Assembly: GCA_030550025.1 (NCBI GenBank)
Contig: JAUQQC010000003.1
Span: 225,464 to 289,463 of the forward strand
Source: Acidobacteriota bacterium
Lineage (GTDB): Bacteria; Acidobacteriota; Blastocatellia; HR10
Direction of reading: 5' to 3'
DNA: 64,000 nt
Position 1 is the first letter of the stretch. Each line of letters starts with the position of its first letter. The notes beneath the pieces are model-generated. The model searched no databases. It was not told the DNA's origin and worked only from the letters and a program-made list of their open reading frames with translations. This document shows positions 11,544 through 15,496 of this stretch, in pieces. The position numbers were made by a program, and so were the translations under genes.

Positions 11544-11963
11544 CTACGGGAGCAAGGTATTCGAAAAGGTGCCTCCCGGTTGAAACGGGATGCTCACCGA
11601 TCGTCCCGATCGGCGATCGAGCACGCGATGAACCTCCGTGAGGAACTCCGTCGGATCGCTCGATTTGAGGACGTAGCTCTCGGCTAACCACGTGGTATAG
11701 TCGTCCTGAAAAGACGCATAGGCCGTGAGGATGATGACGGGGACGCGCGCCGGATGACTCGCGATCTGCTGAAGCAGCTCAAGCCCGCTCTGAGACCCCA
11801 ATCGAATATCGAGGACGACGAGATCGGGCGGTTCGACCTCCAAAAATCGCAAAGCTTCGGCCCCAGAGGGGGCTTCAACGACATCATGTCCCTCATCGGC
11901 CAAGACAGCGGAATAAAAAAGGCGGATGTTGGGCTCATCATCTACAAGCAAAATTCTCGCCAT
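11544..11963 (-). CDS. Single-domain response regulator (receiver only)
   Basis: A 139-aa CheY/Spo0F-like receiver. The acidic pocket is Asp8/Asp9 (LLVDDEPNIR), the phospho-acceptor Asp52 (VVLDIRLG), with Thr80 (ILTAYA) and Lys100 (YVLKSSD). A short Ser/Pro tail replaces an output domain. ATG 11963 follows AAGGAGGA. It lies 106 bases downstream of a 68-aa helical protein on the same strand. No histidine kinase is nearby, so the partner is encoded elsewhere. Confidence 0.92.
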   Translation of the reverse strand: MARILLVDDEPNIRLFYSAVLADEGHDVVEAPSGAEALRFLEVEPPDLVVLDIRLGSQSGLELLQQIASHPARVPVIILTAYASFQDDYTTWLAESYVLKSSDPTEFLTEVHRVLDRRSGRSVSIPFQPGGTFSNTLLP

Positions 11964-12069
11964 GGCGACGTCCTCCTTATACATCACCGGCGTTGACGCC
12001 GCCTCATCCAGGAGCGCCATGCCGTATACTGCCTCAGATGAGCCCGCTTCGAAAGAGCGACCACACCGA

Positions 12070-13090: not shown

Positions 13091-13771
13091 TCAGAACTGA
13101 ATTTGGGGGACGCGCGTCGCTTCCGGCGCGGCTTTGAAGTAATCCTCAGCCCGTTCGAAGCCAAAGAGGCGAGCGACGAGAACCGAGGGGAATCGGGACG
13201 TCGCGATGTTATACTCTTGAACGGCTTGAATGTAATCCCGGCGCGCGACGGCGATCCGATTCTCGCTTCCGGCCAGCTCATCCATGAGCCGTTGGAACGT
13301 CTCGTTCGAGCGCAACTCGGGATACTGCTCAGCGAGTGAGAGCACTTGCACGCGCAGTTGCGGCAGAATGGTCTCGATCTGCGCGTTCGCTTGGACGCGC
13401 TCTTCCGGCGTCGCATCGGGTTTGAGGAGTTTGGCTCGCGCCTCCGCGATGCGGGTGAAGACCTCCAGCTCTTGCTTCGTGATCCCGCGGACTGTGTTCA
13501 CGAGATTCGGGATCAGATCAGCACGTCGCTGCATCTGATTCTCCACCTGCGACCACCGGCTGCGCACGGTCTCGCGCTTCGCGACCAGGCTGTTGTACGT
13601 CGAGACGGAGTAGCCGCCGAAGATGAGGATCACCACGCCGAGGACGACGCCCGCCATCAAGGTCCGACGGCGCCGCTCGGCTCGCGCCCGGGCCAATTGT
13701 TCTTGCTCACGAAGATAGACCTGGCGGAACTCCTCGCGCGTTCCGGGTTCCGGTCCCAACCATTCGCTCAT
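13091..13771 (-). CDS. LemA family membrane protein
   Basis: A 226-aa protein: a charged cytoplasmic N-tail of about 38 residues, one transmembrane helix (MAGVVLGVVILIFGGYSVST), then the long LemA helical bundle (YNSLVAKRETVRSRWSQVEN, RRADLIPNLVNTVRG). The N-tail is longer than in typical LemA. It is the last gene of an operon with the nucleotidyltransferase-like gene (4-base ATGA overlap) and the TPM gene. LemA and TPM proteins are often neighbours; their joint role is unresolved. Confidence 0.92.
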   Translation of the reverse strand: MSEWLGPEPGTREEFRQVYLREQEQLARARAERRRRTLMAGVVLGVVILIFGGYSVSTYNSLVAKRETVRSRWSQVENQMQRRADLIPNLVNTVRGITKQELEVFTRIAEARAKLLKPDATPEERVQANAQIETILPQLRVQVLSLAEQYPELRSNETFQRLMDELAGSENRIAVARRDYIQAVQEYNIATSRFPSVLVARLFGFERAEDYFKAAPEATRVPQIQF

Positions 13772-14487
13772 GGCCGCACCTCCAAATGATCAACTCGCTC
13801 GATGACGCCCCGAATGGCTTCCACATAGGCGGCGAAGAGCCGATCGGCTTCCTCAAGCGGAAGCGATCGCTTCGCCTCTCGGAGATCGAGAACGGCATGA
13901 AACGGCGTCACCTCAAGCGAGAGCGAATCGCCCAATCGCTGCACAACCTCCCGCCTCTTCAGCGGAGGCTCGGAGATCCCAAAGAGCCGCAAGACATGGC
14001 GGAAGAGAGTGACGAAGCTCACGATCGAATCGGTCATGAGCGCCGTCACCCGCTCGGCGCTCTGGCTCGCCGGAATGTAGAGTTCCCGCAGCCGGATGAG
14101 CTTGCCCCGCAATTCGTACTCGATCTGGTGGCGAAGGTGAACGGTCGAGACCTCAAGCCCCAGGAAGGGGTCTTCGCCATAGAGAACGCGATGGGCAGCG
14201 CTCATGTCGAGGAATTCCATGGGGAAGACATCCGATGCGTCCACCATCTCCTCTCGCGTGAAGTAAAGCGGCAAGGGATGTCCGCGCGCTTGCCAATCTT
14301 CGATGAGGGGACGGACGGCTCGAAGATCCGCCGGGGTGATTGTCTCCAGAACGACGAGGACATTATAGTTCGATCGTTCGGGATCGAAGTCTCCCATCAC
14401 AGCCGATCCGTAGAGTACGATGGAGACAAGCTGCGCCCCATGCGCCGCTTTCAACCCCTCGACAAGTTTGACCAGCTCATCCGCCAT
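13768..14487 (-). CDS. Nucleotidyltransferase-fold protein with degenerate active site
   Basis: A 239-aa protein. The N-terminal part follows the polymerase-beta-like nucleotidyltransferase pattern (VSIVLYGSAVMGDFDPERS), keeping the GS motif. The metal-binding DxD that should follow is replaced by N-Y-N (SNYNVLVVLE). The C-terminal half (about residues 110-239) is helical and HEPN-like. Loss of both aspartates suggests it does not transfer nucleotides and may act as a scaffold or sensor. It sits between TPM (18-base gap) and LemA (ATGA overlap), so its job is probably at that membrane complex. Confidence 0.75.
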   Translation of the reverse strand: MADELVKLVEGLKAAHGAQLVSIVLYGSAVMGDFDPERSNYNVLVVLETITPADLRAVRPLIEDWQARGHPLPLYFTREEMVDASDVFPMEFLDMSAAHRVLYGEDPFLGLEVSTVHLRHQIEYELRGKLIRLRELYIPASQSAERVTALMTDSIVSFVTLFRHVLRLFGISEPPLKRREVVQRLGDSLSLEVTPFHAVLDLREAKRSLPLEEADRLFAAYVEAIRGVIERVDHLEVRP

Positions 14488-14505
14488 GATGAATCGGGAT
14501 ACGCA

Positions 14506-15351
14506 TCACCAACTCCCGCTCGCGCCCCCTCCCCCAAAAGATCCCCCACCGAAGCCGCCAAAGCCACCGCCGCCGAAGCCCCCCGATCGGTGCGAGCCGC
14601 CGCCAATGTGGCCGCCAAAGCCCCCGGATCCTCCACCGCTGAAGATGATCGGATACCATAACCAGTCCGAATCCTGATATGGCCGCGATCGCCTGAGTTG
14701 CCCCTTTCTTCGCCAGCCCGTCCCCGTGGTCGCCGCCAAAACGAAAGCGAGGATGAAGAGGACCACAAACAGGAGCACAAGACTCAGGCCCGCCGCTCGA
14801 ACGGACCGCCGCTCCGGCGCATATGCGAGCGAGGCATCCACATCTTCGATCGTCACACCGCGCTTTTTAGCGAGCGTCGCGACGATGGTTTGAAGGCCCA
14901 ACTCGAGCCCTTCGCCATATTTCCCCTCCCGGAAATAGGGGACCATGCGCCGCCCCACCTCTCCAACCAACCCGTCGGGCAACTCCCCTTCCAACCCATA
15001 CCCGACCTCGATGCGCCACTTGCGCTCGTTCGGAGCGACGAGAATGAGCAAACCCGTATCCTCCCCCTTCCGCCCAATTCCCCATCGGCGCGCCAGCTCG
15101 ATCGAATAGTCCTCGATCGGCATCCCTTCGAGCGAAGAGACGGTCACAATGGCGATCTCCACCCCCATCTGCGCGCGCGCTCGGCGGATCAGAGCCTCCA
15201 TTCGCGTCTGGCTCTCCACATTGAGCACGCCGGCGAAGTCGTTCACGTAGCCTCGCGGCGATGGGAATTCCTGACCGCGCGCGAGATGACCAAGCGCCCC
15301 TCCCATAAGCACGAGAACGACTTGCATCCCAATCACGATCCGGCCTCGCAT
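14506..15351 (-). CDS. TPM-domain membrane protein with glycine-rich tail
   Basis: A 281-aa exported protein. The signal peptide (GMQVVLVLMGGALGHLARGQ) precedes a TPM fold (GYVNDFAGVLNVESQTRMEA, VEIAIVTVSSLEG, RWGIGRKGEDTGLLILVA). A transmembrane helix follows (about residues 183-208), then a C-terminal stretch dominated by GGG, GGF and GGS repeats. This is the YgcG-like architecture. TPM domains have been linked to phosphatase activity and photosystem repair in plants; the bacterial role is unsettled. It is first in the TPM-nucleotidyltransferase-LemA operon. Start ATG 15351 or the preceding GTG. Confidence 0.9.
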   Translation of the reverse strand: MRGRIVIGMQVVLVLMGGALGHLARGQEFPSPRGYVNDFAGVLNVESQTRMEALIRRARAQMGVEIAIVTVSSLEGMPIEDYSIELARRWGIGRKGEDTGLLILVAPNERKWRIEVGYGLEGELPDGLVGEVGRRMVPYFREGKYGEGLELGLQTIVATLAKKRGVTIEDVDASLAYAPERRSVRAAGLSLVLLFVVLFILAFVLAATTGTGWRRKGQLRRSRPYQDSDWLWYPIIFSGGGSGGFGGHIGGGSHRSGGFGGGGFGGFGGGSFGGGGASGSW

Positions 15352-15496
15352 CACGCCATAGCTTACCAGATCATTTCTCCATATGCCAATCAGCGAACGT
15401 TCGTCCCTCGCCCGCGTGGGAACATTTCATCGCGAGACGACGTCGAACACCATGAAGGTTATCCTCATCTAAGACGAAGTGGGTGCGGAGGCATGT

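Follow-up and report, generated by a model that had tools for sequence, protein, structure and literature searches.

A nucleotidyltransferase-fold protein with a degenerate metal site linked to TPM and LemA genes in two bacterial phyla

In ANT(3'') and ANT(9) enzymes the metal and base triad is formed by Asp-x-Asp together with Glu-87, and the E87Q variant cannot adenylate. The protein described here (NT), encoded between genes for a TPM-domain and a LemA-family protein, shares with ANT(9) and ANT(3'')(9) (AAD(9), 6sxj; AadA, 4cs6 and 6fzb) the full-length two-domain fold and a GSA...S[DN]x[DN] loop. It differs from them in that the second Asp of the NT family is Asn, the third-carboxylate strand is acid-free, other residues are conserved and the neighbours are TPM and LemA. 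The nucleotidyltransferase domain fold is also common to MntA and HalB (Hailong), with HalB matching over both domains, whereas NT is without DxD and without an adjacent HEPN toxin or other Hailong gene.

Proteins of this fold without detected activity are already known as ligand-binding or recruiting modules, namely MiD51 and MAB21L1 (PMC4897736). The likeness of these metazoan proteins and of MiD49 to NT is one of working principle only, with the fold serving as a ligand-binding or recruiting surface, in MiD51 at the membrane. They belong to the eukaryotic cGAS/MAB21 branch, MiD51 has a TM anchor of its own and the relation to NT appears limited to the fold. One feature of a MiD51-like adaptor, a nucleotidyltransferase fold with a broken metal site, is found in NT.

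On the side of the partners, pairs of the same two Pfam families without NT are known and often adjacent; those sampled here were mostly ordered LemA-TPM and had other TPM tails, whereas NT-bearing units were mostly TPM-NT-LemA. In PspA-YdjH operons of Firmicutes a TPM protein (YdjH) is coupled, at the membrane, with a partner from the cytoplasm (PMC11237479); PspA, however, is not a nucleotidyltransferase, and that paper mentions neither LemA nor a nucleotidyltransferase. Our literature search found no paper joining the TPM domain, LemA and a nucleotidyltransferase.

The three-gene unit and the fold of NT

The window, a 64,000-nucleotide stretch of DNA from an Acidobacteriota bacterium, contains a co-directional unit in the order TPM > NT > LemA on the minus strand (15351-13091):

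14506-15351, minus strand: TPM-domain protein, alternative GTG start at 15354 (Pfam TPM_phosphatase, PF04536, E = 1.2e-38)
13768-14487, minus strand: NT, predicted soluble pseudo-nucleotidyltransferase of ANT(9)/AadA fold, 239 aa (AF2 and Foldseek)
13091-13771, minus strand: LemA-family protein (Pfam LemA, PF04011, E = 1.8e-49)
13768-13771, minus strand: ATGA overlap of the NT stop and the lemA start (sequence)

Both partners clear their Pfam cut-offs by a wide span (132.4 bits versus 22.1 for TPM, 167.8 versus 26.2 for LemA), and the window genome holds one match to each in total. TPM and NT are spaced by 18 nt, while NT and lemA overlap by ATGA, as the original prediction stated. The unit is flanked by a convergent RecX gene (plus strand) and a divergent gene for a CarboxypepD_reg protein, and the three genes thus stand as an isolated unit. 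A promoter and terminator scan returned nothing above chance. NT relatives were absent from both a plasmid search and a viral-contig scan, so that neither points to an origin from a mobile element or a phage. Elsewhere in the window, positions 11544-12020 (minus strand) encode a response regulator receiver domain protein, with no output domain matched in Pfam, which is unrelated to the unit.

NT did not exceed the cut-off of any Pfam or NCBIfam model. The window protein alone fell below the cut-off of NTP_transf_2 (E = 0.21), a model matched by 17 of 42 NT relatives at E ≤ 0.01 (best 1.6e-5). ANT(3'') models matched residues 5-50 (best E = 7e-4), and with 19 bits against an NCBIfam ANT family cut-off of 400 NT fails that family model. 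A single-sequence search of the PDB gave chance matches only and was discarded; a search by NT profile reached AadA at E = 0.02, and hhalign aligned residues 5-47 alone with AadA. PF13427 (AadA_C) had no match in the window genome, but the controls were likewise without a match. Among the matches listed (80 of 324 GTDB places), the closest relatives of NT were from Bacterium HR08 and HR10, and most others were labelled Acidobacteria or Acidobacteriota.

The AF2 model of NT, built from 42 relatives (pLDDT 95.7, pTM 0.89), matched ANT(9), ANT(3'')(9) and AadA over its full length in Foldseek, the best hit being 6sxj (E = 5.3e-7, TM 0.60). With 6sxj, 7uy4 and 6fzb all at probability 1.00 (TM 0.56-0.61), the two-domain ANT fold is present in the model; HalB followed next, and then MntA, which matched the N-terminal half of NT only. 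NT had been described as carrying a HEPN-like helical half. A helical C-terminal domain is indeed there, but the term is a loose one, since the match to two-domain ANT enzymes covers NT from end to end, and this half is accordingly the helical C-terminal domain known from the ANT fold. No pair of the form R-x4-6-H, the HEPN RNase motif, occurs among the columns conserved in both NT clades (defined below), conserved His columns being confined to one of them, the motif-lost clade. No HEPN toxin gene lies next to NT in the window, where the neighbours are TPM, LemA, RecX and the CarboxypepD_reg protein. Neither sequence nor model indicated a signal peptide or TM helix in NT.

Degenerate metal site and conserved residues

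Conservation was counted in a main clade of 132 distinct TPM/LemA-linked proteins and in a motif-lost clade of 20; AadA residue numbering was verified on AadA1 from plasmid R46. The positions concerned are:

14404-14409, minus strand: GS motif G27-S28 of the nucleotidyltransferase fold (aligned with AadA Ser-36)
14362-14370, minus strand: metal site N40-Y41-N42, replacing D-x-D (aligned with AadA Asp-47/Asp-49)
14257-14277, minus strand: strand P71-T77, expected carrier of the third carboxylate, without acid (1/132 relatives with D or E in 71-77)
14215-14232, minus strand: family signature D86-V-F-P-M-E91 (conservation across both clades)
14086-14133, minus strand: first helix of the C-terminal domain, with R119, E123 and R134 (conservation across both clades)

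The GS motif is kept in the window protein, in agreement with the original prediction, which also read the metal site as N-Y-N. That reading holds for residues 40-42 of this protein but not for the family: the first metal position was Asp in 120/132 main-clade proteins and the second was Asn in 121/132 and Asp in just one, so that D-x-N is the family-wide form and N-Y-N a local one. N-Y-N is shared with the two nearest relatives (L091 and L092, 84% and 82% identical), and dN/dS of NT against HR08/HR10 was about 0.1, equal to that of TPM and LemA, so that neither chance nor an assembly error accounts for the motif. On the tree, D-x-N is likely ancestral, N-x-N arose twice, and complete loss of the motif occurred seven times by parsimony, at least four of them on well-supported branches. 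The sole DxD relative nests inside D-x-N; this D-Y-D form (L018 (G204), L156) is an apparent reversion. Weak unlinked matches in Elusimicrobiota were ordinary D-x-D nucleotidyltransferases.

In the main clade G27/S28 are kept at 95-100% (S28 in 126/132), S39 at 92%, the first Asp at 90% and R163 at 77%. The motif-lost clade has lost GS and both acids (S28 in 1/20), yet it belongs to the same family by hhalign (probability 100, E = 8e-41) and keeps both the fold (pLDDT 91.5; TM up to 0.63 with AAD(9)) and the operon. S28, S39 and R163, the would-be nucleotide contacts, are hence a property of the main clade only, while P73 persists in 125/132 and 20/20 proteins of the two clades.

In MAFFT alignments under three settings AadA Glu-87 fell opposite R78 of NT, a placement at odds with the predicted strand. 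As sequence leaves the exact register of Glu-87 unsettled, the claim of a missing third carboxylate rests on the acid-free strand 71-77; the register of AadA Arg-192/Lys-205 is likewise unsettled by sequence, the hhalign alignment stopping at residue 47. E80 in the next helix, acidic in 77% and 100% of the respective clades, might conceivably stand in for the third carboxylate. Overall, the family-wide absence of the second Asp and the acid-free strand support NT being a pseudo-nucleotidyltransferase, and the earlier proposal of a catalytically dead enzyme is borne out to that extent; no Asp pair was found in close homologues.

What is conserved instead lies outside the metal site. D86 is present in 132/132 and 20/20 proteins and E91 in 131/132 and 20/20; R119 and E123 reach at least 99% in both clades and R134 98% and 100%. 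Taken with F88 and G104, these residues reach 98-100% in either clade; for P73 and P89 the figure is 94% or more. In the Acidobacteriota paralogs that are not linked, position 86 is E or R and position 91 is K. The position of D86 coincides, to about one residue, with that of AadA Asp-130, a ribose-binding residue. From this conservation and the low dN/dS it follows that the target of selection on NT is something other than canonical nucleotidyl transfer.

Genomic linkage and predicted membrane topology

Linkage was judged in two phyla, a TPM gene being counted if it had the orientation of NT and lay no more than 3 kb away. TPM was linked in 70 of the 75 NT loci obtained from 297 Acidobacteriota genomes (LemA also in 66) and in all 17 loci of Elusimicrobiota (LemA also in 16), or 87/92 in total, and the recurrent linkage implied by the original prediction is therefore real. 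Since only one to three genes out of thousands encode TPM, we estimate the probability of chance linkage at well under 1%. Five full gene orders were seen (TPM-NT-LemA, NT-TPM-LemA, TPM-LemA-NT, LemA-TPM-NT and NT-LemA-TPM), so adjacency has been kept through rearrangement. TPM is the constant partner of NT and LemA is sometimes absent: six loci (L048, L049, L079, L082, L122, L139) had TPM without an adjacent LemA, while at loci with LemA but no TPM the NT gene lay near a contig edge. The five unlinked loci (L058, L067, L068, L073, L075) group in a divergent branch that lacks the D-x-F-P-x-E signature; L067, L068, L073 and L075 are stand-alone D-x-N paralogs without TPM/LemA neighbours, a second pseudo-nucleotidyltransferase group.

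Across the 297 genomes TPM was found in 168, LemA in 229 and NT in about 75, and as many genomes with TPM and LemA are without NT, it is accessory rather than obligate in such systems generally. Twenty NT-free TPM loci were sampled: LemA preceded TPM in 10, TPM preceded LemA in 4, and no co-directional LemA was found in 6. Three loci of family f15 (L210, L211, L213) have the NT-type TPM-LemA order without NT, which other f15 genomes have, and are likely cases of secondary loss.

In the TPM protein a signal peptide and the TPM domain precede a single TM helix, after which come Arg/Lys residues and a Gly-rich tail (TM helix and tail by hydropathy):

14731-14790, minus strand: TM helix of TPM, approximately residues 189-208 counted from GTG, then WRRKGQLRR (hydropathy 3.2)
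14509-14652, minus strand: Gly-rich C-terminal tail of TPM ending GGFGGFGGGSFGGGGASGSW, the proposed docking place of NT (inference)

The Arg/Lys residues after the TM helix would, by the positive-inside rule, place the tail in the cytoplasm, with the TPM domain in the periplasm. A Gly-rich tail as such is not specific to NT, since NT-free TPMs also bear one. FGGFGGG occurred in 80/160 NT-linked tails and 0/16 NT-free LemA-first or solo TPMs, a comparison confounded by phylogeny. The TPM tails of the NT-free LemA > TPM operons (L197-L202, L205, L206, L214, L215) mostly contain FSGGGG, as against FGGFGGG in many NT-linked ones, and TPM-LemA pairs may possibly be of two functional types.

The window LemA has a charged N-terminal extension of 38 aa (ERRRR; 13658-13771), one TM helix and the helical LemA domain. 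A lipobox was present in 77/156 NT-linked LemAs, in many relatives as LSGC directly before the domain, and the LemA domain is on this ground predicted to be periplasmic. NT itself is probably cytoplasmic, judging from its sequence, and a lipoprotein LemA would leave nothing in the cytoplasm for it to contact. Given a periplasmic LemA domain, and given that LemA goes missing while TPM stays, NT more likely touches TPM than LemA.

Possible roles of NT

We consider it somewhat more probable than the reverse (roughly 0.55) that NT is a non-catalytic cytoplasmic subunit recruited to a TPM-based envelope module, docking on the Gly-rich tail of TPM. A nucleotidyltransferase fold would here have been recruited in a non-enzymatic capacity, to the one part of the module that is invariably present in the cytoplasm. 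The docking surface would probably be organised by a D86-x-F-P-x-E91 / R119-x3-E123 / R134 network, and docked NT may recruit or gate cytoplasmic partners, while TPM (and LemA) may help to assemble or repair membrane complexes on the periplasmic side. From genome context it has been argued that the TPM domain acts on membrane complexes in assembly or in a chaperone-like way, and not as a phosphatase (PMC11237479; PMC12419801); should that view hold, NT would be the cytoplasmic arm of the TPM system. The remaining GS...D pocket of the main clade may still hold a nucleotide as regulatory ligand, which that of the motif-lost clade cannot do in the usual way. As a counterpoint, the invariance of D86, E91, R119, E123 and R134 could also be accounted for by a ligand-binding or catalytic site.

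A related proposal, which we hold tentatively and at a little under even odds, casts NT as a cytoplasmic receiver, a bacterial counterpart of MiD51-like receptors of this fold. Through it, what TPM/LemA do in the periplasm would be coupled to some ligand or partner in the cytoplasm, the catalytic site having been repeatedly discarded and a new invariant D-x-F-P-x-E / R-x3-E site kept. The original prediction had envisaged a membrane complex with a cytoplasmic sensor; the sensor loses support from the disappearance of the would-be contacts in a clade that retains the operon. NT might bind a nucleotide (ATP/ADP or an alarmone) in its former active-site cleft, without catalysis, and signal the bound state to TPM, comparably to MiD51 with ADP; we find this possible but rather doubtful. 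The main clade does keep G27/S28, S39 and the first Asp, the sequence around R163 looks like that around AadA Arg-192 (sequences compared by eye, not by alignment), invariant D86 is near the place of a ribose ligand, and MAB21L1, again without detected activity, binds NTPs at sub-micromolar affinity (PMC4897736). However, in the 20-protein clade and at least three further lineages GS/D or the Asp/Asn pair has gone but the operon is still there, and other residues of NT are more conserved than those that would bind the nucleotide.

The same invariant residues bear on whether NT is an active enzyme of altered chemistry, with D86, E91, E123 and R119/R134 as a new catalytic site or with transfer at an incomplete metal site. 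Acidic and basic residues invariant in both clades are a pattern common in enzymes, and pseudoenzymes with other chemistry are known, but at least two of the three metal ligands are absent in nearly all members, no neighbour besides TPM/LemA hints at a substrate, and the charges may equally form a buried salt-bridge network; we regard this as improbable. Still less probable is a partnership with LemA through its N-terminal cytoplasmic extension, TPM linkage being incidental: the charged extension of the window LemA and the ATGA overlap speak for it, whereas about half of the linked LemAs, as predicted lipoproteins, have no cytoplasmic part, and it is LemA, not TPM, that goes missing. That NT is a functionless relic of an MNT antitoxin or a resistance ANT, hitch-hiking in the operon, we find scarcely credible in spite of its fold relatives (MntA, HalB and ANT enzymes), since it is contradicted by purifying selection and by a linkage that outlives several rearrangements in two phyla; nor was a HEPN toxin gene seen beside NT in the window.

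As envelope proteins TPM and LemA are found widely, but there is no consensus on what they do. A dedicated and conserved third gene, whose product is predicted to be cytoplasmic, gives experiments a point of entry through pull-downs, comparison of knockouts and mutation of a defined group of invariant residues. For the question of how nucleotidyltransferase folds turn into non-enzymatic parts, the NT family adds an example from bacteria in which the catalytic motif disappeared independently at least four times. NT is likely the missing non-enzymatic subunit of a TPM/LemA envelope system in two phyla.
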